From Haloprofundus salinisoli (lineage in GTDB: Archaea; Halobacteriota; Halobacteria; Halobacteriales; Haloferacaceae), in contig NZ_CP083663.1 in NCBI RefSeq assembly GCF_020097815.1, forward strand, positions 1,178,001 through 1,242,000: 64,000 bases of DNA, given 5' to 3'. Position 1 is the stretch's first letter; each line of letters begins with the position of its first letter. This document shows positions 49,590-63,908 of this stretch, one piece after another. A program made the position numbers and the translations under genes. Below the pieces are notes generated by a model. It was not told the origin of the DNA and did no database searches. It was given only the letters and a program-made list of their open reading frames with translations.

Positions 49590-50357
49590 TTACGTTTCGC
49601 GGGCGCTACCGACGGCTTGCGCGATAAGACCGGCCTGCGCGCCCGCGACGAACCCGGCGTCGACGTTGACGACCGAGAGCACCGAACACGACTGGAGCAT
49701 CCCCAAGAGCGCCGCCTCGCCCTCGCCGCCGAACCCGTAGCCCACGGAGACGGGCAGCGCGATGACGGGCGCGTCGACCATCCCGGCGACGACGGTGGGG
49801 AGCGCGCCCTCCCGCCCGGCGGCGACGACGAGCGCGTCGGCCGCGCGGAGCGCGTCGCGCTGATCGAGGACGCGGTCGATGTTGGCGACGCCGACGTCGC
49901 TGATGCGGTCGACGTGCGCGCCCATCTCTCGGAGGACCGCCGTCGCCTCGCCCGCGGCGGCGGCGTCGGAGGTGCCGGCGGTGACGACGGCCACCGTCGC
50001 GTCGAGCGACGGACGCTCGTGGTCAGGCGCACGCGCGACGAGGGTGCGTGCGCGCTCGTCGGTCTCGACTGTCGCGTCGGGAACCTCCGCGTCGACGCGC
50101 GTGCGGACGGTTTCGACCGTCGCTCCGTCGGTTCGGGTGACGAGCGCCCTACCGGTCGTTTCGATCGCTGTGAGAACGAGCGACGCCGTCTCCTCGGGCG
50201 TCTTGCCGTCCGCGAGAATCGCCTCCGGGACGCCGCGTCGGTGCTCGCGGGCGGCGTCGAAGCGCCCCGCGTCGGTACTCGCATAGCCCGACAGTCGGGC
50301 TTCGGCCGCCGCCGGCGAAAGCTCGCCGGCCGCGACGGATTCCAGGATGTCTCGCAT
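49590..50357 (-). CDS. larB: Pyridinium-3,5-biscarboxylic acid mononucleotide synthase LarB
   Basis: This 255-residue LarB carboxylates nicotinic acid adenine dinucleotide, the first step of the nickel pincer cofactor used by lactate racemase. Motifs: RDILESVAAGELSPAAAEAR, RRGVPEAILADGKTPEE, VVTAGTSDAAAAGEATAVL, VVAAGREGALPTVVAGMVDA and the glycine-rich GYGFGGEGEAALLGML. LarE is encoded at 63015-63908 in this window; LarC and a LarA-like racemase are not. Confidence 0.92.
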   Translation of the reverse strand: MRDILESVAAGELSPAAAEARLSGYASTDAGRFDAAREHRRGVPEAILADGKTPEETASLVLTAIETTGRALVTRTDGATVETVRTRVDAEVPDATVETDERARTLVARAPDHERPSLDATVAVVTAGTSDAAAAGEATAVLREMGAHVDRISDVGVANIDRVLDQRDALRAADALVVAAGREGALPTVVAGMVDAPVIALPVSVGYGFGGEGEAALLGMLQSCSVLSVVNVDAGFVAGAQAGLIAQAVGSARET

Positions 50358-51635: not shown

Positions 51636-52424
51636 ATGACCGACATCAGATGTGGATTCGTCACGCAGACGCACTCCGGCGACGTGACAGCGTCCGAAGC
51701 TGTCGAACAGGCCGACGCGTTCGGCTTCGACTTTCTCGAACTGTACATGGACGGCGCGACGGAGCGGAGCCGATTGGACCGCGACTCGTTCGCCGCCGCC
51801 GTCGCCGGCGCCGACCTCGACCTACTCGTTCACCTCCCGTTCGTCGACCTGGACCTCGGGACGCCCCGCGACGGCGTCCGGGAGGCCGCGCTCGCCGAAC
51901 ACCGCGCGTGTCTCGACGCCGCCGCGGAGATGGACGCCAAAAAGGCCGTCCTCCACGCGAGCACGCACGCGACGTACCCCGAGTGGGACGCCGAGACGAC
52001 CCACCCGCGGATGCTCGACGCGATACGGCAGTTGGACGACCACGGACGGGAGGTCGGCGTCGAGGTGTGCGTCGAGAACCTCCCCGGCGTCTCCTTCACC
52101 GTCCACGAGTTCGACCGCGTGTTCGAGGAGACCGACGCCTCGATGACGTTCGACACCGGTCACGCCCGCGTCGACGGGATGGACGCCGAGGCGTCGGCGG
52201 CGTTCCTCGACGACCACCGCGACCGCGTCTCGCACGTCCACGTCAACGACGCCCGGGGCGCGCGGGACGAACACGTCCCGACCGGCTCCGGAACCACGGA
52301 CTTCGAGACGGTTCTCGCGCCGCTTCTCGACGACTGGAGGGGCACCGTTTCCGCGGAAGTGTACACGTTCGACGCCGACTACCTCGAACTCAGCAAACGA
52401 AAACTGGACGAGGTACTCGCCTGA
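51636..52424 (+). CDS. Sugar phosphate isomerase/epimerase-like TIM barrel
   Basis: This 262-residue xylose-isomerase-like (AP_endonuc_2) TIM barrel has GFVTQTHSGDVTASEAVEQA, LLVHLPFVDLDLGTP, KAVLHASTHATYP, VEVCVENLPGVSFT, SMTFDTGHARVDG and HVHVNDARGARDEHVPTGSG. The metal ligands of the family (E near 152, D near 184, H near 216, plus H/E) are present, so Mn2+ or Zn2+ is likely. The substrate is unknown. A TATA-like CCTATATGG (51598-51606) covers the alternative ATG at 51603, so ATG 51636 is preferred. Its stop is followed by 2 bp before the TagF-like ATG. Confidence 0.8.
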   Translation: MTDIRCGFVTQTHSGDVTASEAVEQADAFGFDFLELYMDGATERSRLDRDSFAAAVAGADLDLLVHLPFVDLDLGTPRDGVREAALAEHRACLDAAAEMDAKKAVLHASTHATYPEWDAETTHPRMLDAIRQLDDHGREVGVEVCVENLPGVSFTVHEFDRVFEETDASMTFDTGHARVDGMDAEASAAFLDDHRDRVSHVHVNDARGARDEHVPTGSGTTDFETVLAPLLDDWRGTVSAEVYTFDADYLELSKRKLDEVLA

Positions 52425-52426
52425 GG

Positions 52427-53779
52427 ATGCGAGACGAGGAGTTGCCACACGGGGAGGTCACGGGCGGACGCGACGAGTCAGAGACGGACAAGGCGGAGAC
52501 AGGCGAAGCGGACGAGGCAGAGACTGTCGGGGCGGACGAGTCCGACGAGGCAGACGAGACGCGCGACGGAAACGGAATGGAGGGGCGAACTCGTCAGCAA
52601 CGGTGGCTCTACTACGTCTCGTTGTTCTTCGAGGCCGTCGCCGTCGCCGTCGTCGGCGCGGTCACCCGACGGGTCGGTCGCGACGACTCGCTATGGGTGT
52701 TCGGCGCGCGCGGCGGCACCGACTTCTGCGAGAACAGCAAGTATCTCTACCTCTCGGTCGCCGACGACAAACCCGACGTTCGGCCCGTCTGGGTGACGAA
52801 GAACCGGGCTATCGTCCGCGAACTCCAACGCCACGGCTACGAGGCGTACCACGCCTTCTCGCCGCGCGGCGTCTGGGTACAGCTCCGGGCGGGAGCGGTC
52901 TTTCTGACGCACAACCTCAAGGACGTGAACCGATTCGCCGTCGGCGGGGCGACGCTCGTGATGCTGTGGCACGGCGTGCCGCTGAAACACATCTCGTGGG
53001 ACGCCGAACTGGCCGAGCGCCCCCGACCGGTGCGAGCGCTCTCGCGCTACCTCTACGACCAGTACGACCTCGTCTCGCTCACCGGGTCGGGCGCGCGCGA
53101 GTCGTTCCGAACGGGGTTCGGCCTCCCGGACGACCGACTCGTCGTGACGGGCTATCCGCGGACCGACGTGTTCTTCGAGTCGGTGCCCGGGGCGACGCTC
53201 TGCACCGACGAGACGGAACTGCAGCGGGTACAGCGTCTCGCGGAGGACCACCGGGTGTGGCTCTACATGCCGACGTTCCGCGAGAACCCGTCGGCGCAGG
53301 CGTCCGAGCACGTCGACTTCGCCGCGCTCGACCGACTGTTCGCGGCGCACGACGCCTATCTCGTCGTCAAACTCCACCCGAAGGAGCGGCTGGACGCCGA
53401 CATCTCGGCGTTCGACCACCTGCTCGAACTCCCCGCGGGGGTCGACGTCTACCCGCTGCTGCCGGCGACGGACGGCCTGATCACGGACTACTCGTCGGTG
53501 CTGTTCGACTACCTGCTTCTCGACAGACCGGTGATTCGCTACGCGTACGACCTCGAGGCGTATCGGGCCGAACGAGGCTTCTACTACGACTACGAGGCGT
53601 TGGTGACCGGGCCGACCGCACGGGAGTTCGACGACCTGCTCGACGCGCTCGAGGGGCCACTCGACGGCGGCGACGACTACGCGGCCGAGCGTCGCGCCGT
53701 TCGAGACCGGTTTTTCGACCACGACGGCGGCGGCTACGCCGACGCCGTGTACGAGGCGGTGAGCGAACGACGTGGTTGA
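52427..53779 (+). CDS. CDP-glycerol glycerophosphotransferase-like (TagF/TagB domain)
   Basis: This 450-residue protein has an acidic N-terminus with degenerate EADEAET repeats (about 22-45), one hydrophobic helix near 60-82, then a complete glycerophosphotransferase domain. Motifs: VMLWHGVPLKHISWD (about 182-196), VVTGYPRTDVFF, WLYMPTFREN, VVKLHPKERLD, LITDYSSVLFDYLLLDRPVI and AERGFYYDYEALVTGP. In bacteria these transfer glycerol-phosphate from CDP-glycerol onto teichoic acid chains. It follows the TIM barrel by 2 bp. The archaeal acceptor is unknown. Confidence 0.9.
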   Translation: MRDEELPHGEVTGGRDESETDKAETGEADEAETVGADESDEADETRDGNGMEGRTRQQRWLYYVSLFFEAVAVAVVGAVTRRVGRDDSLWVFGARGGTDFCENSKYLYLSVADDKPDVRPVWVTKNRAIVRELQRHGYEAYHAFSPRGVWVQLRAGAVFLTHNLKDVNRFAVGGATLVMLWHGVPLKHISWDAELAERPRPVRALSRYLYDQYDLVSLTGSGARESFRTGFGLPDDRLVVTGYPRTDVFFESVPGATLCTDETELQRVQRLAEDHRVWLYMPTFRENPSAQASEHVDFAALDRLFAAHDAYLVVKLHPKERLDADISAFDHLLELPAGVDVYPLLPATDGLITDYSSVLFDYLLLDRPVIRYAYDLEAYRAERGFYYDYEALVTGPTAREFDDLLDALEGPLDGGDDYAAERRAVRDRFFDHDGGGYADAVYEAVSERRG

Positions 53780-53948
53780 CAGTCAACCGAAAAGTAAAGA
53801 ACAGTGTGGGGGTGACCTCGGGTGTGAACCGCCACGATGGGCCGTGACGGGTGTTGAACTCCGGAGAGATATAGTCAGCTATGAGGGATATGTACACTAA
53901 CGGAGATAGTTTGATGTACGTGACGGTACACACTGTAAACACGAACGC

Positions 53949-54890
53949 ATGGCACAGCTAGTAGGGCCGAAAACGACGACTGGGACGAAAGCGGATGTGT
54001 CGCTCATCGCCCACCGCGGGTTTGCGGGCGTCTACCCTGAGAACACGCGGGCGGCGTTCGGACGTGCCGTCGGTGCCGACGGGACGACGATAACGCCGCA
54101 GGCCGACGTCGTCGAACTCGACGTGATGCCGACGGCGACGGGCGAAGTCGTCGTCTTCCACGACACCGACCTCGGTCGACTGACGAACGCGCCGGCGACG
54201 CTGGCCGACCAGAAAGTGTGGGAGACGCCGTACGAGACGCTTCGGAAACTCGACGTGCTCGGCACCGGCGAGTCGGTGCCGCTGCTCGCCGAAATACTCG
54301 ATATGATCCCCGAGTCCGTCGGTATCAACGTCGAGTTCAAGAACCCCGGCGTCGACGACGTCCGGTACGGGTCTCTCGACGCCGACGAGCTCGTCGAACG
54401 ACGCGCGGTGTGGGAACCGTTCGTCGAACGTACGCTCTCGGAGTTGGCCGTCTCCTCCCACGAGGTGCTGGTGTCGTCGTTCCACGAGGGGGCGCTCGCC
54501 GCCGTCCGCGAGCTGGACGGCTCGGTCCCCATCGCGACGGTGTTCTGGGACGACATCGAGGCGGGCTTTCGGACCGCCAGACGCCACGACTGCGAGGTGC
54601 TGCACGTCCCGTGGAACATGGTGTACGGAACCGAGCTGTTCAACGCCGACTACCACGCCGGGCCGTTCGACCCCATCGACCTGGTCGAACTCGCCCACGA
54701 GGAAGGACGGCGCGTAAACGCCTGGACCGTCGAGAGTTGGTACCAGGCCGACCAGCTCCGGCGGGCTGGCGTCGACGGCATCATCGCCGACTACCCGAAC
54801 CTGCTACAGTACGGTGCGAGTGGGGGTGTCACACCCGACTCGACGGCGGCGGAACCGCCACTGCAGTCCCCGGACGCGCCACCGCAGTAA
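53949..54890 (+). CDS. Glycerophosphodiester phosphodiesterase
   Basis: This 313-residue GDPD-family enzyme has SLIAHRGFAGVYPENT (about 18-33), VVELDVMPTATGEVVVFHDT (about 57-76) with the catalytic His and acidic metal ligands, GINVEFKN (about 122-129), and VNAWTVESWYQADQLRRAGV near the C-terminus. A short C-terminal tail is S/P/T-rich. It would free glycerol-phosphate from diesters; with TagF and the NTase-HAD fusion nearby it may recycle polymer units. No signal peptide is seen. Confidence 0.92.
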   Translation: MAQLVGPKTTTGTKADVSLIAHRGFAGVYPENTRAAFGRAVGADGTTITPQADVVELDVMPTATGEVVVFHDTDLGRLTNAPATLADQKVWETPYETLRKLDVLGTGESVPLLAEILDMIPESVGINVEFKNPGVDDVRYGSLDADELVERRAVWEPFVERTLSELAVSSHEVLVSSFHEGALAAVRELDGSVPIATVFWDDIEAGFRTARRHDCEVLHVPWNMVYGTELFNADYHAGPFDPIDLVELAHEEGRRVNAWTVESWYQADQLRRAGVDGIIADYPNLLQYGASGGVTPDSTAAEPPLQSPDAPPQ

Positions 54891-54995
54891 GTGTTAAAGT
54901 AGACGTACGTCATATTCACTTGATTTTCTCTTAGAATTTTAATTCAGTTACACGTTAATCCTCACTTATTGTCCCTCGCGTGGTACACATCGGGA
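54891..54995. promoter_or_regulatory. AT-rich gap before the NTase-HAD gene
   Basis: 54891-54975 is far more AT-rich than its surroundings, with runs such as TTAGAATTTTAATTCAGTTA and TTGATTTTCTCTT. The palindrome GACGTACGTC lies at 54902-54911. It probably holds a GDPD terminator and the NTase-HAD promoter. No ORF is supported. Confidence 0.4.
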
Positions 54996-56519
54996 ATGAC
55001 ATATCCGAACACTGCAGTCATTCTCGCCGCGGGCATCGGGTCTCGACTTCGGCCGATAACGCTCCGCAAGCCGAAGTGTAGCGTCACCGTCGACGGCACG
55101 CCGATTCTGGCGTACCAACTCCGGGCGTACGCCGAGGCGGGTCTCGACGAAACGGTCGTCGTCGCCGGCTATCTGGCCGAGAAGACGCGGGCGTTGGCCG
55201 AACGCGTCGCCGCCGATTACGAGGGGTTCTCCGTCACGGTCGTCGAAAACGAGGTGTACGCCAACACGGACAACATGTACTCGCTGTCGCTCGTCGAGCC
55301 GCTTCTCGACGGCGAACCGTTCTTCCTAAGCAACGGCGACGTGGTGTTCGACCCCGAGGTGATAACGAAGCTGGCCGACGTCGACGTCGACAGCGCCATC
55401 GCCTGCGACACCTCGCTGTTCTCCGAGGAGGCGATGAAAGTGACCGCCGACGACCGCGACTGCATCTCTAGCATCTCGAAAGAGTACACGAGTTCGGAAG
55501 CGCACGCCGTCTCCATCGACGTGTATCGATTCTCGGGGACGTTCTCGGCGGCGCTGTTCGACGAGATCGAACGGAGCGTCGAACAACACGGCGAGTACGG
55601 CGGGTGGACCGAACTCGCCATCGACCGACTGCTCAAAAGCGGCCGCTTCGACGTCGACCCCGTCGACATCGCCGGCGCGGGCTGGGTCGAAATCGACAAC
55701 CTCGAGGACCTCGCGGAGGCCGACCGGCAGTTCGCGTCGCTGAGTCCGCTCGGCGAGAAGCGGGCGGCGTTCTTCGACCTCGACGGCACCGTCTACCTCG
55801 GCGACGACCTCATCGCCGGCGCGGCGGAGGTCGTCTCCGAGCTCCGGGAGGCGGGCGTCGACGTGTTCTTCCTCTCGAACAACTCCTCGCGGTGGAAACC
55901 CGGTTACGCCGAGAAACTCCGGACACTGGGTATCTCGGCGACACCCGAGTCGGTCATCCTCTCGACGGACGGCGTCATCGCCTACCTCGAATCGATCGGC
56001 ACCGAAGAGACGTACGTCGTCGGCACCGAGGCGATGCGCGACGCGCTCCGCGAGCGCGGTTTCGCCGTCGAATCCGACGAGCCGACGCACGTCGTCGTCG
56101 GCTTCGACACCGAACTCACCTACGAGAAAGTTCGCCGCGCGACGCTGGCCATCCACGACGGGGCCGAGTTCCTGCTCGCGCACCCCGACGCGGTCTGTCC
56201 GACCAACGAGGGGCCGATTCCCGACTGCGGCTCTATCGGCGCGCTCGTCGAGACGGCCGTCGGCCGCCCCCCGGCGCACGTCTTCGGCAAACCCAACCCG
56301 GAGATGCTTCTGCCCACGATGGAGGAGTACGGCTACGAACCCGACGAGGTGGTTGTCGTCGGCGACCGACTCAAAACCGAGCTTCAGATGGCCGACCGAA
56401 TCGGCTGCGAGTCCGTCTGCGTGCTCACCGGCGACGCCAACCGCGCCGATGTCGAGGCCAGCGACATCGTCCCGTCGCTGGTCGCGCCGTCGATAGCGAC
56501 GCTCTCGGAGTACATCTGA
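54996..56519 (+). CDS. Nucleotidyltransferase-HAD phosphatase fusion
   Basis: This 507-residue two-domain enzyme begins with an NTase domain of LicC/IPCT type (about 1-245): VILAAGIGSRLRPITLRKPK, then NEVYANTDNMYSL, then WVEIDNLEDLAEAD. The second half (about 250-507) is a HAD-IIA phosphatase with FFDLDGTVYLGDD (nucleophile Asp), FLSNNSS, VFGKPNPEML and VVVGDRLKTE. LicC-type enzymes make CDP-choline; others make CDP-inositol or CDP-glycerol. The fused phosphatase may provide the substrate. Its neighbours suggest glycerol-phosphate chemistry. Start ATG 54996 (MTYPNTAVILAAG). Confidence 0.88.
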   Translation: MTYPNTAVILAAGIGSRLRPITLRKPKCSVTVDGTPILAYQLRAYAEAGLDETVVVAGYLAEKTRALAERVAADYEGFSVTVVENEVYANTDNMYSLSLVEPLLDGEPFFLSNGDVVFDPEVITKLADVDVDSAIACDTSLFSEEAMKVTADDRDCISSISKEYTSSEAHAVSIDVYRFSGTFSAALFDEIERSVEQHGEYGGWTELAIDRLLKSGRFDVDPVDIAGAGWVEIDNLEDLAEADRQFASLSPLGEKRAAFFDLDGTVYLGDDLIAGAAEVVSELREAGVDVFFLSNNSSRWKPGYAEKLRTLGISATPESVILSTDGVIAYLESIGTEETYVVGTEAMRDALRERGFAVESDEPTHVVVGFDTELTYEKVRRATLAIHDGAEFLLAHPDAVCPTNEGPIPDCGSIGALVETAVGRPPAHVFGKPNPEMLLPTMEEYGYEPDEVVVVGDRLKTELQMADRIGCESVCVLTGDANRADVEASDIVPSLVAPSIATLSEYI

Positions 56520-56723: not shown

Positions 56724-57497
56724 ATGGAAGACATGCTAGCCGACAAGGCGGCGGTCATCACCGGTGCATCGAGCGGGAACGGCCGAGCGACGGCGATGGC
56801 GTTCGCCCACGAGGGTGCAGACATCGTCGTCGCCGACATTCGCGAGGAACCGCGAGAGGGCGGGACGCCGACGCACGAGAAGGTACAGGAGGAGACCGAC
56901 GCCGAGGCGACGTTCGTCGAGTGCGACGTGTCGAACACCGACGACCTGAAGAACGCCGTCGAGGCCGCCGAGGAGTTCGGCGGTGTGGACGTGATGGTGA
57001 ACAACGCGGGCATCTTCCGCAGCGAGGCGTTCGCCGACGTCACCGAAGACCAGTTCGACCAGATGTTCGACGTGAACGTCAAAGGCGTCTTCTTCGGCAC
57101 GCAGGCGGCCGCGGCGCGGATGCGCGAGAACGGCGGCGGCAGCATCATCAATCTCTCCAGCGTCGCCGGACTGGAGGGCTCCGGCGACTACGTCACCTAC
57201 TGCGGGACGAAGGGCGCAGTCCGGATGCTGACGTACGCGACGGCGAGTGCGCTCGGCGGCGACGGCATCCGCGTCAACGCTATCCATCCGGGCCTCATCG
57301 AGACGAAGATGACGACCGAGGACGTGCCGATAATCGGCTCCGAGAGCGAAGAGCAGTTCATGAAACAGATTCCGGCCGGACGTTCCGGTCAGCCGGAGGA
57401 CGTCGCAGACGTGGCGCTGTACCTCGCCAGCGACCTCTCGGACTACGTCACTGCCGAGTCCATCGTCGTCGACGGCGGCCTGTCGAACACGCAGTGA
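56724..57497 (+). CDS. SDR-family NAD(P)-dependent oxidoreductase
   Basis: This 257-residue classical short-chain dehydrogenase has the cofactor site AAVITGASSGNGRATAMAFA (about 9-28), NNAG (about 93-96), the catalytic serine in INLSSVAG and the YxxxK in VTYCGTKGAVR (about 155-165), and VNAIHPGLIETKM. The GASSGNG pattern in place of GASxGIG is an asparagine variant. Typical substrates are alcohols or sugars. It may belong to the neighbouring glycerol-phosphate cluster, but this is only position. Confidence 0.9.
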   Translation: MEDMLADKAAVITGASSGNGRATAMAFAHEGADIVVADIREEPREGGTPTHEKVQEETDAEATFVECDVSNTDDLKNAVEAAEEFGGVDVMVNNAGIFRSEAFADVTEDQFDQMFDVNVKGVFFGTQAAAARMRENGGGSIINLSSVAGLEGSGDYVTYCGTKGAVRMLTYATASALGGDGIRVNAIHPGLIETKMTTEDVPIIGSESEEQFMKQIPAGRSGQPEDVADVALYLASDLSDYVTAESIVVDGGLSNTQ

Positions 57498-58764: not shown

Positions 58765-59892
58765 TCAGTCGAGACGGTCCAACACCGCGTCGGGGTCGTA
58801 CGAGAGCGTCAGCGTCCGCGAGCGGCCGCGGCCCTCGACGTTGGCGTAGTCGGCTTTGATGACGCCGAGTTGGTCGAGTTTGTTGATGATCTCGGAGTAG
58901 CGCGTGTAGCCCAGTCCCGTGTCGGCGTGGAACGCCTCGAACACTTCGCCCGCCTGCTCGCCGTTGTGGTCGGCGAGCACCCCGACGAGCGCGCGTTCGG
59001 AGTCCGACAGCCCGCGGAGGCTGCGCGAGAGGTGGACGTACTTCGACTTGTCGTAAGCGTGTTCGACGTCTTCGAGCGTCACCGTCCGCGAGGCGCGCAT
59101 CTCGGCGTTCAGTCCCGCCCGGCGGAGTAGATCGATGCCGACGCGGAGGTCGCCGCTCTCGGCGGTGAGTTCGGCGACGCGGTCGAGTTCGGGCGCGCCG
59201 ATGACGCCGTCGTGGAAGCCGATTCGGGCGCGTTCGCGGAGGATATCGACGATCTCGTCGGTGTCGTAGACGGGAAAGTACACCTCCTCGGGTCGGAAGA
59301 CGCTCTGGACGCGGGTGTCGAGTTCGTCCATGATGTCCAAAGAGAGGTCCGAGGAGATGATGATGACGCCGATGCGCGCGCCGCTGTGCGCCTCGTGGGC
59401 CCGAAGCAGCGAGTACAGCGTGTCCGAGGCCTCGTTCTCGTAGAACAGGTAGTTCACGTCGTCGAGCGTCACGACGAGCACGTCGTCCTCCTCGACCAAC
59501 CGGTCGGTGATCTGGCCGAACAGCTTCTTGAACGAGATACCCGACGACGGCGGTTCGTACTCGAAGATGCTCTCGAACAGGCGCGAGAAGACGGCGTAGC
59601 GCGTCGAGTCGACCTGACAGTTGACCCGAACCGTGCGCACGTCCGTCTGCCCGCTGAGTTCGCCGAACAGCTTCTGAACGGCGGTCGTCTTCCCGGTCCC
59701 CGGCGGACCGCGAACCATCGTGTTGAGCGGGCGTGCGCCGCGAACGGCCGGACGAAGCGCGTACTGCAGGCTCTGCAGTTGGCTCTCGCGGTGGCGGAAC
59801 GTCTCTGGAACGTAGTCGATCTCGAAGACGTGTTCGTCTCTGAACACCGTCTCGTCCCACGAGAGCATCCCCCCGTCGGGGTCGTCAGCCAT
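58765..59892 (-). CDS. Orc1/Cdc6-type replication initiator
   Basis: This 375-residue AAA+ initiator binds origins and loads helicase. Walker A RGPPGTGKTTAVQKLF (about 61-76), Walker B VVTLDDVNYLF, sensor-1 VIIISSDL, and sensor-2 SGDLRVGIDLLRRAG, followed by a C-terminal winged helix (LGYTRYSEIINKLDQLGVIK). Haloarchaea have many Orc paralogues, some not linked to an origin. I see no origin-like repeats upstream (59893-60020). Start ATG 59890-59892 (MADDPDGGML). Confidence 0.93.
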   Translation of the reverse strand: MADDPDGGMLSWDETVFRDEHVFEIDYVPETFRHRESQLQSLQYALRPAVRGARPLNTMVRGPPGTGKTTAVQKLFGELSGQTDVRTVRVNCQVDSTRYAVFSRLFESIFEYEPPSSGISFKKLFGQITDRLVEEDDVLVVTLDDVNYLFYENEASDTLYSLLRAHEAHSGARIGVIIISSDLSLDIMDELDTRVQSVFRPEEVYFPVYDTDEIVDILRERARIGFHDGVIGAPELDRVAELTAESGDLRVGIDLLRRAGLNAEMRASRTVTLEDVEHAYDKSKYVHLSRSLRGLSDSERALVGVLADHNGEQAGEVFEAFHADTGLGYTRYSEIINKLDQLGVIKADYANVEGRGRSRTLTLSYDPDAVLDRLD

Positions 59893-60020
59893 CACTTTCA
59901 CCACGCTTCGGCGGCTACTTAACCGTTTGCCAACTCCGGAGTGAAAGTGAAAGAAGCCGTCACAGCGATTGAGAGAGCCTAAACATACACTTAAACGAAT
60001 TTGAATGTTCGGACGAGCGT

Positions 60021-62039
60021 TCAGAACTTCTCCAGCAGTCGCGCGTAGAACCCGCGACGCGACATCGCCTCGTCGCCGCGGCCGTTCGCTCGTTCGGCGT
60101 CGTCTCGCGCCTCGCCGGCCAGTTTCTCGACGATGAGTTCCGGCGTCGAGCGCGCGAGGTGGCCCTTGACGGGTGAGCGGTTCACCCGAAGTTCCCCGTC
60201 GACGAGGCCGACGGCCTCGATACCGTCGACGGCGACGTCGAAGTCGGTGGTCTCGCGTATCTCGTCGGCGAGGTGGGAGACGAACACGCCGGTCGTTCCC
60301 TGTTCGTGGAGCGCTTCCAGAATCCCGGCGATGATGCGGGCGCTCGCGCCGGGTTCGGTGATGCTCTCCAGTTCGTCGACGAGGACGAGACGGCCCGACG
60401 CGCCGGTTGTGAGCGCCGCGAAGTCGCGGAGCGTGCTCTCGAACGCCCCGGCGTCGAGCGTCCCCTGACTTTTTGCGTAGTAGTGGAGTTCGGAGACGCG
60501 TTCGAGGCGGGCGCGTTCGGCCGGGACGGGCAGCCCCATCTGTCCGAGGATAACGACGACGGCGACCAGATCGAGCGTCGACGTCTTCCCGCCGCTGTTG
60601 ACGCCCGACAGGAGCGTCACGCCGGAGACGCCGTAGTCGACGGGGTCGACCTCCTCGAACGACACGTCCAGGAGGGGCGAGCGGCCCGCCTCGAACTCGA
60701 ATCCCGAGCCGGAAAACGCGGGAAGCGCGCAGTCGAAGTCGCGGGCGAACCGGGAGACGGCGAGTTCGACGTCGAGTTCCAGCGCATCGGCGACGAGCGT
60801 CTCGACGGGGTCTCGGAGCGCCGCCAAGTCGGCCGCGAGGTCGGCTTTCAGCGTCGCCGCGCGGCGATCACGGCCGGCTTTCAACTCCGTCCGGAGTCTG
60901 GAGACGGCCTCCTCGTTGTGGCCGACCGGGAAGGTCGGGTCGCCGCCGAAGACGCGTTCGGCGAGGTCGTACTCGCCCTCCTCCAGCAAGAGCGCGTCTG
61001 CGAGGTGTTCGCGGGCCGTCTCGACGGCGGTATCGTACTCGTCGGCGAGTTCGCGCGAGAGCAAGCTATCGACGCGCGCACCCTGTTCGACGAGCGAGAG
61101 GAAGTCCTGGCCCTGGATGGTCACGTCCTGCTCGCTGATGGCGGTTCTGAGGTGGTCGTTGGCCGCCGACTCGGCGGTCGAGACGGCCGCGTCGAGATCG
61201 TCGACGGCGGCGGTGAGGCGGTCGAGTTCCGCGTCGCCGACGAGTTCGCCGTTCTCGTCGACGCGCGTCAGCGCGTCGCGGAGGTTCTCGGGCGAACAGG
61301 CCGGGTCGAGGCCGGCGGTCTCGTGAACCGACACGGCCGCGAGCAGACGCTCGCGGTTTTCCGCGAAGAAAGCGAGCAGGCGCTCGGGGACGATCTCCTC
61401 GGGCTGGTCTGCGGCGTCGGGGCGGACGCGCACGTCGCCGTCGACGTCGACGCCCGCGAACGCCTCGTCGAGGGCGACGACCGTCGAGTACGACCGCGCG
61501 AGTTCCGCGAGGTCGTGGGCGTCCTCGACAATTTCGACCGAGAGTTCCGGAAACGTCGCCTTCGCCTCGGCGTATCGCTCGGCGTCGACCGTTGCGAGAC
61601 AGCGCTCGCGGACGCGGAGATTCGACGGCGCGCGGAGCGCCTCCACGTCGGCGAGGGCGTCGAGGACCGCCGGATCGGGCGTGCGTTCGAGCGCCGATTC
61701 GACGAACGTCCTGACCTCCTCGATTCTGGACTCGGAGGCGGTCGGGAACAGCGTCTCCAGGCGCTTCTCGGCGTATTCGGTGACCGCGCGCTCCTGTAGC
61801 AACCCGAGGACGTCGCGGTAGAGTTCGCGGGCGCGGTCGGTCGCCAGGAAGTCGCCGTCGTCGCCGTGTTCGGCTCGAATCGCCGCGCGAGCGATGGCGG
61901 CGGCGCGTCCTTCGGTGATACCCGGCGCACGCGAGAGCGTCGCCACGTCGCCGTCTCTGAGCGCCGACTCGGCGTCGTCGAGTTCGGCGAGCGAGGCGGC
62001 GGTCTTCTCGCCGACTCCCGGGATGGCCTCGAACTCCAT
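60021..62039 (-). CDS. HhH-MutS family ATPase (MutS2/MutS5-like)
   Basis: This 672-residue protein has an N-terminal helix-hairpin-helix (FEAIPGVGEKTAASLAEL, about 3-20; SRAPGITEGRAAAIARA) and a long helical clamp-like middle. A C-terminal MutS ATPase follows, with Walker A LLSGVNSGGKTSTLD (about 482-496), VLVDELESITEPG (Walker B) and VFVSHLADEI. It lacks the MutS1 mismatch-binding domain and the Smr nuclease of bacterial MutS2. Function could be recombination control or removal of DNA structures. It is on the same strand as orc1, 128 bp apart. Confidence 0.9.
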   Translation of the reverse strand: MEFEAIPGVGEKTAASLAELDDAESALRDGDVATLSRAPGITEGRAAAIARAAIRAEHGDDGDFLATDRARELYRDVLGLLQERAVTEYAEKRLETLFPTASESRIEEVRTFVESALERTPDPAVLDALADVEALRAPSNLRVRERCLATVDAERYAEAKATFPELSVEIVEDAHDLAELARSYSTVVALDEAFAGVDVDGDVRVRPDAADQPEEIVPERLLAFFAENRERLLAAVSVHETAGLDPACSPENLRDALTRVDENGELVGDAELDRLTAAVDDLDAAVSTAESAANDHLRTAISEQDVTIQGQDFLSLVEQGARVDSLLSRELADEYDTAVETAREHLADALLLEEGEYDLAERVFGGDPTFPVGHNEEAVSRLRTELKAGRDRRAATLKADLAADLAALRDPVETLVADALELDVELAVSRFARDFDCALPAFSGSGFEFEAGRSPLLDVSFEEVDPVDYGVSGVTLLSGVNSGGKTSTLDLVAVVVILGQMGLPVPAERARLERVSELHYYAKSQGTLDAGAFESTLRDFAALTTGASGRLVLVDELESITEPGASARIIAGILEALHEQGTTGVFVSHLADEIRETTDFDVAVDGIEAVGLVDGELRVNRSPVKGHLARSTPELIVEKLAGEARDDAERANGRGDEAMSRRGFYARLLEKF

Positions 62040-63014: not shown

Positions 63015-63908
63015 ATGGACCTCGATGCGAAAGTCGACGCCGTCGTCGACGCCCTCGCCGACCGCGAGGGCGTCGTCGTCGCGTTCTCCGGCGGCGTCGA
63101 TTCGAGCGTCGTCGCTGCGCTCGCGTACGACGCTCTCGGTGACGACGCGGTCGCCTGTACCGCCAAAAGCGAGACGCTCCCGGCCGAAGAGCTCGACGAC
63201 GCGAGGCGCGTCGCCGAGGAGATCGGCATCCGGCACGAGCTCGTAGAGTTCTCCGAACTCGACAACCCCGACTTCGTCGCCAACGACGGCGAACGGTGTT
63301 ACCACTGCCGGACGATGCGCCTCGGCAAGATGTACGAGACGGCCCGCGACCTCGGCATCGGCACCGTCTGCGACGGCACGAACGCCTCCGACCCCGGCGA
63401 AGGACACCGGCCCGGCCTCCGCGCGGTGAAGGAGTTGGAGGTGTTCTCGCCGCTTCTGGCCCACGACGTGACGAAGGCGGAAGTCAGAGAGATCGCCGAC
63501 CGCTACGGCCTCTCAGTCGCGGACAAACCGTCGATGGCCTGCCTCTCCTCGCGGATTCCGACCGGCCTCGAAGTGACCGAGGAGCGGCTGACCCGCGTCG
63601 AGAAGGCGGAGCGACTGCTGCGAACGTGGGGGTTCTCGCAGTTCCGCGTCCGCGACCACGACGGCCTCGCGCGCATCGAGGTCGCCGAAGAGGAGTTCGA
63701 GCGGGCGCTCGACGGCGACTTCGTTCGCGCGGCGCGCGAGCATCTCTCCGAGGTCGGCTTCGACCACGTGACGCTCGACCTCCACGGCTACGCCACCGGA
63801 AGCGTCAGTCCGGCGAACGCGGCGTACGAGGCCGGCCAAGAGGGGGACGACGACCCACTCGTCGCCGACGTGTTCGCCCGGGAGTATCCGGTCGGTGAAG
63901 ACGACTGA
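63015..63908 (+). CDS. larE: ATP-dependent sacrificial sulfur transferase LarE
   Basis: This 297-residue PP-loop enzyme inserts sulfur into the nickel pincer cofactor. The PP-loop is VVAFSGGVDSSVVAALAY (about 21-38), followed by ERCYHCRTMRLGKMY (about 94-108), CDGTNASDPGEGHRPGLRA (about 118-136) and SMACLSSRIPTGLEVT (about 174-189). The last holds the cysteine (about 177) that supplies sulfur in LarE of lactobacilli. Cysteines at 96 and 99 also occur. larB lies 13 kb away (49590-50357). Confidence 0.92.
   Translation: MDLDAKVDAVVDALADREGVVVAFSGGVDSSVVAALAYDALGDDAVACTAKSETLPAEELDDARRVAEEIGIRHELVEFSELDNPDFVANDGERCYHCRTMRLGKMYETARDLGIGTVCDGTNASDPGEGHRPGLRAVKELEVFSPLLAHDVTKAEVREIADRYGLSVADKPSMACLSSRIPTGLEVTEERLTRVEKAERLLRTWGFSQFRVRDHDGLARIEVAEEEFERALDGDFVRAAREHLSEVGFDHVTLDLHGYATGSVSPANAAYEAGQEGDDDPLVADVFAREYPVGEDD

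Follow-up and report, generated by a model that had tools for sequence, protein, structure and literature searches.

A haloarchaeal gene cassette with a putative role in CTP-activated polyol-phosphate transfer to a membrane-bound acceptor

Does a haloarchaeon use CDP-activated donors to make phosphodiester-linked polyols, a chemistry deemed a bacterial hallmark? The question is raised by four genes at 51636-56519 of a 64,000-nucleotide stretch (the window) of the 3.42 Mb genome of Haloprofundus salinisoli. The original prediction assigned them to an isomerase-like TIM barrel, a TagF-like transferase, a glycerophosphodiester phosphodiesterase (GDPD) and a nucleotidyltransferase (NTase)-HAD fusion, and Pfam and NCBIfam concur with these families. 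With modest confidence, we favour the view that the genes form a haloarchaeal mobile cassette which, with cytidine triphosphate (CTP) for activation, transfers a small polyol phosphate, most likely that of glycerol, onto an acceptor in the membrane and has hydrolases of its own for turnover. If so, the envelope of some haloarchaea would carry phosphodiester-linked polyols, added by a compact enzyme set that includes an apparently undescribed cytidylyltransferase-HAD fusion. Since haloarchaeal lipids are built on sn-glycerol-1-phosphate, the cassette also offers a route to asking which enantiomer of glycerol phosphate such an organism would use.

Gene families and catalytic residues

All four open reading frames are intact and lie on the + strand. 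The second (52427..53779, 450 aa) encodes a predicted TagF/TarF-type CDP-polyol phosphotransferase. Enzymes of family PF04464 transfer polyol phosphate from CDP-polyols, and the protein matches this family (Glyphos_transf) over positions 11-365 of 367 (2.6e-68; 231 bits against a cut-off of 22.1). It is the only PF04464 gene in the genome. The Staphylococcus epidermidis TagF in the PDB is matched at 5.6e-30 within its C-terminal domain (TagF residues 355-707). The catalytic motifs named at the outset are intact, as H182 and H317 align with H444 and H584 of that enzyme. Both histidines are invariant in 39 sequences, and the active site, including the DYSS region, is kept in haloarchaeal relatives. 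The protein has a single domain that aligns end to end with TarF in NCBIfam, where its best partial match is TarL. Its N-terminus is acidic and carries a hydrophobic helix at about residues 59-83. The helix, also found in relatives, suggests that the reaction takes place at the membrane.

The fourth gene (54996..56519, with an alternative TTG start at 54969) encodes a 507-aa chain in which NTP_transf_3 (4e-14) and Hydrolase_6 (1.4e-24) are joined. The predicted structure is of high confidence for both domains (pLDDT 91.8, pTM 0.88). The NTase half (54996..55742) is MobA-like and LicC-like, a predicted cytidylyltransferase. A profile ("A2") built from 17 NTase halves of fusions matched LicC, a CTP:phosphocholine cytidylyltransferase (1jyk, 1.2e-21, positions 1-236 of 248), PntC (6pd1, 2.7e-16, full length) and IPCT (4jd0, 2xme and 4mnd, full length). 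Sugar-phosphate NTases were matched mostly at their N-terminal part only. Because the strongest full-length matches are cytidylyltransferases, the comparison supports, and does not prove, the use of CTP by this half. The nucleotide loop, PK and EID residues are retained and these signatures are conserved; with LicC, PntC and IPCT the half shares the GxGSR loop, PK, an NxYSL-type motif and EID. Unlike those enzymes it is fused to a phosphatase and paired with TagF. The phosphatase half (55743..56519) belongs to the HAD-IIA (C2-cap) group, scoring 126.4 bits against TIGR01460 (cut-off 100.15). Its motifs DxDGT, SNNS, GKP and GDRL are all retained, and Foldseek places it near 1vjr, PH1952, NagD and the glycerol-phosphate phosphatase Rv1692.

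The third gene (53949..54890, 313 aa) encodes the predicted GDPD (PF03009, 5.9e-30), which has no evident signal peptide. The residues H22 R23, E56, D58, H71, E129 and K131, corresponding to the HR, E.D, HD and E.K motifs, are invariant in 19 cassette orthologs. GDPD enzymes characterised to date act mainly on glycerophospho groups. Because a GDPD is present in the set, glycerol is the most likely first guess for the polyol.

The first gene (51636..52424, 262 aa) encodes a xylose-isomerase-like TIM barrel that matches PF01261 (AP_endonuc_2) at 8e-32. Its top Foldseek matches are ketose 3-epimerases, and UlaE is also near. The residues E147, D173, H176, H200, H202, H213 and E241 are invariant in 16 cassette orthologs and probably have a metal role. 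CbiR, a phosphodiesterase (PMC7733943), is its best NCBIfam match (1.6e-24). A CbiR function was rejected, as 86.7 bits falls below the equivalog cut-off of 105. The protein shares the fold and the conserved His, Asp and Glu with CbiR and the ketose 3-epimerases of the AP endonuclease 2 superfamily, but forms a close group of its own tied to the fusion: all 16 close orthologs (E < 1e-100) are in genomes that carry the fusion, and the next relatives are weaker by about 20 orders of magnitude. It is a candidate polyol or ketose epimerase, or a candidate phosphodiesterase, and may indicate a polyol other than glycerol.

Recurrence of the gene set in haloarchaea

Conservation of the gene set was examined in a class-wide sample of 292 haloarchaeal genomes, using 20-kb regions around the fusion and around other TagF genes. 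The full-length fusion is present in 21/292 genomes belonging to five GTDB families. A PF04464 relative is found in 47/292 at a loose cut-off, about 43 of them convincing, and all 21 fusion genomes have one. The co-occurrence is significant at the genome level (hypergeometric p ~2e-20) and at the genus level (p = 3.6e-6), the latter being the fairer figure because genomes are not independent. Of the 21 fusion genomes, 18 have TagF within 20 kb of the fusion, 19 have GDPD there and 16 the TIM barrel. A scan of genome contigs gave four named species with the full-length fusion: Halorussus amylolyticus, Haladaptatus litoreus, Halorussus halobius and Halohasta salina.

The order of the genes varies. 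TIM-TagF-GDPD-fusion is found in the genus of the window and in Halohasta-type genomes. Most genomes of family f6 (Halorussus and relatives) have TagF-GDPD-fusion-TIM, with the TIM gene starting at about the end of the fusion. In family f8, GDPD is divergent to a same-strand fusion-TagF pair followed by an SDR gene, and one f4 genome has TIM-TagF-fusion with an opposite-strand gene between TagF and the fusion. By eye, the product of this intervening gene resembles manganese catalase. When all neighbouring genes were clustered, little else was common between families apart from common SDRs, and no transporter, export or flipping gene was conserved in the cassette. Because the linkage persists through rearrangement across families, the four genes are a real conserved functional unit, not chance neighbours.

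In a tree of TagF proteins, 20/21 of those from fusion genomes group in one part. Groupings within the tree cut across families, which suggests that the cassette has been transferred horizontally. The four proteins also show correlated pairwise distances (r = 0.84-0.90). Haloarchaeal TagF genes outside the cassette often have a stand-alone MobA-like NTase of ~30-36% identity next to them, frequently among glycosyltransferase genes; the NTase-TagF pairing therefore exists in two forms. A ~300-aa protein forming one cluster recurs near the stand-alone pairs in haloarchaeal glycan clusters (L086-L112; for example L089:8220-9194, L090:10531-11505, L101:11484-12365 and L102:8401-9324, also L107 and L108). 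A Pfam scan of two members gave no match.

More distant NTase-HAD fusions (~33% identity) occur in metagenome-assembled genomes from a different family in the same phylum (L125 9461-10978, L126 6048-7547 and L127 1254-2753), some of them near glycosyltransferase-looking genes. Because their nucleotide loop reads AANDN instead of AAGIG, the NTase half may have changed in function. The other cassette genes were not found on the stretches read for these relatives (G301, G310, G333).

Proposed route and competing explanations

How might these enzymes work together? Formation of a CDP-polyol, most likely CDP-glycerol, would fall to the NTase half of the fusion. From this donor the TagF/TarF-type enzyme, anchored in the membrane through its N-terminal hydrophobic helix, would pass the polyol phosphate on to a lipid or a lipid-linked glycan, forming a phosphodiester. 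The glycerol phosphate could be of the sn-1 or the sn-3 form. Inside the cell, GDPD would cleave the resulting phosphodiester or fragments of it, a role that fits turnover of a glycerol phosphodiester. The HAD-IIA half may control the polyol-phosphate pool by draining it, or may make the substrate by stripping a second phosphate before activation. The TIM barrel could supply or edit the polyol precursor, or could be a second phosphodiesterase. The original prediction had the set making, transferring and breaking down CDP-activated glycerol-phosphate-like units. The cytidylyltransferase-like NTase, the PF04464 protein and GDPD all fit that description. The analysis establishes the genes with their motifs and domain families, and their linkage and co-occurrence; the use of CTP, glycerol as the polyol, the acceptor and every reaction are conjecture.

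Several observations weigh against this route. The substrate cannot be read from the sequence. A ketose 3-epimerase-like fold is needless in a pure glycerol pathway, and a phosphatase fused to a phosphate-using enzyme is a paradox unless some other phosphate is its target. GDPD relatives are near-universal in haloarchaea (267/292 genomes), so GDPD alone says little about the cassette. One TagF (L085) sits inside the cassette group of the tree without an adjacent fusion, and in one fusion genome (G105) TagF is ~28 kb away and comes from another branch. The correlated distances, moreover, ignore species-tree kinship.

The closest known system is bacterial wall teichoic acid synthesis. TagF, TarF and TarL share with the haloarchaeal protein the PF04464 family, the catalytic histidines, an expected CDP-polyol donor and, for TarF, the single-domain length. 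Nevertheless, the haloarchaeal set has one PF04464 copy, no TagA and an archaeal membrane, and haloarchaea are not known to have peptidoglycan. TagA/WecG (PF03808) is absent from the genome, and the control search recovered it in Bacillus subtilis. Nor does the cassette contain a TagD of family PF01467, its partner cytidylyltransferase being of the LicC type; PF01467 has four matches elsewhere in the genome and is present in all 14 controls. In its operation the cassette would resemble bacterial CDP-polyol phosphate transfer, yet it lacks features that define the synthesis of wall teichoic acid, and so we class it as a variant among PF04464/CDP-polyol systems, not as a teichoic acid pathway.

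The original prediction held that an archaeal version would be new. This was overstated as regards annotation, because excerpts of two papers give tagF and tagD as annotated for teichoic acid biosynthesis in the archaeon Methanobrevibacter ruminantium M1 (PMC7772410, PMC5816558). That organism also has a PF04464 transferase, but it is a methanogen, a different cytidylyltransferase is named, and neither fusion nor cassette appears in those excerpts. The fusion and the cassette are apparently undescribed: no account of either was found in the open-access literature, most subscription papers lying outside the search. The TagF-like capsule polymerases of Gram-negative bacteria (Cps3D, Bcs3; PMC8262930) also have a PF04464 domain and use glycerol phosphate from CDP-glycerol, but they are large multidomain polymerases, unlike the haloarchaeal protein with its one short domain.

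The single TagF-like enzyme might act repeatedly and build a true teichoic-acid-like poly(glycerol phosphate), as first proposed. We regard this as possible and tentative. PF04464 takes in the polymerases TagF and TarL, and TarL is the best partial match noted above. An exolytic GDPD, GlpQ of B. subtilis, degrades sn-glycerol-3-phosphate wall teichoic acid (PMC7086022). Against this, no separate primase and polymerase were found, the genome having its one PF04464 gene and no TagA; no transporter is conserved in the cassette; and the protein lacks the N-terminal domain of TagF, its match beginning at TagF residue 355. These features leave the claim of a polymer unsupported, and decoration with a single phosphoglycerol fits them equally well. 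Because the sole PF04464 protein is single-domain and TarF-like, and neither TagA nor a conserved export gene accompanies it, a chain is no more likely than the transfer of a single phosphopolyol.

With a similarly tentative standing, the activated unit could be another polyol or ketose-derived phosphate, for instance that of ribitol, arabinitol or a tetritol. It would be prepared by the TIM barrel together with a dehydrogenase, and the HAD half would remove a second phosphate before cytidylylation. In fold, the TIM barrel comes nearest to UlaE and the ketose 3-epimerases. Its gene shows tight linkage to TagF or to the fusion, and CDP-ribitol is the donor for PF04464 relatives like TarL. In addition, rpiA and an SDR gene flank the copy in the window. 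The SDR-family oxidoreductase is encoded downstream (56724..57497, + strand; PF13561, 1.1e-65), and an SDR 44-45% identical to it adjoins TagF in f8 cassettes (L047, L054), SDR relatives being common. However, rpiA is adjacent only in the genus of the window, and was dropped as a pathway member despite its hint of ribitol. SDR is near TagF in f8 and several other genomes, yet is not conserved across families, and was set aside as a doubtful member. The glycerophospho preference of characterised GDPDs also argues against another polyol, as does the phosphodiesterase CbiR being the best sequence family of the TIM barrel. The degrees of confidence given to the preferred reading, the polymer and the other polyol overlap.

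A narrower form of the glycerol route is unlikely, though worth stating. The fused enzyme would convert sn-glycerol-1-phosphate to CDP-1-glycerol for transfer to archaeal lipids or S-layer glycans. The product would be the enantiomeric equivalent of wall teichoic acid in bacteria, and the phosphodiesterase would be sn-1-specific to match. A parallel with CDP-2-glycerol and pneumococcal Gtp1-3 was considered; no paper on it was found in the literature searched, and it was not used as evidence.

The product could instead be a soluble phosphodiester solute, a glycerophospho-compound with no surface acceptor. Haloarchaea balance salt mainly with KCl, however, the acceptors of TagF-type enzymes characterised so far are in the membrane, and the hydrophobic helix ahead of the domain suggests that the protein is attached there. 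We consider a solute improbable, even though IPCT, a relative of the NTase half, serves inositol-phosphate solutes as well as lipids, and the use of CDP-1-glycerol in archaeal glycerophosphoinositol synthesis is mentioned in PMC8262930. That the four genes are mere neighbours with unrelated housekeeping roles is barely credible: haloarchaea commonly have GDPD, HAD-IIA and AP_endonuc_2 proteins, but linkage is kept despite shuffled order, the fusion is never without TagF in the sample, and the surrounding genes vary by family.

Transcription and neighbouring genes in the window

Only 2 bp separate the TIM barrel and TagF-like genes. The spacing is 169 bp between the TagF-like gene and GDPD and 105 bp between GDPD and the fusion. 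Because these two gaps (53780-53948 and 54891-54995) are AT-rich, they suggest separate promoters for GDPD and for the fusion, and the four genes may form more than one transcript. No noteworthy promoter, terminator or RNA-family signal was found at the locus by scans whose promoter model was sigma-70, archaeal promoters being outside its reach.

Elsewhere in the window, a 672-aa protein encoded at 60021-62039 on the - strand is MutS-like by eye (GVNSGGKTS, DELESITEPG) and has no NCBIfam match at 1e-40. An ORC1/Cdc6-type replication initiator lies at 58765-59904 on the - strand (741 bits), and a replication origin may be near it. LarB and LarE, both of nickel-pincer cofactor biosynthesis, are also encoded: LarB at 49590-50357 on the - strand (232.7 bits, cut-off 175), while LarE lies ~13 kb from it at ~63015-63908 on the + strand (289 bits, cut-off 150).

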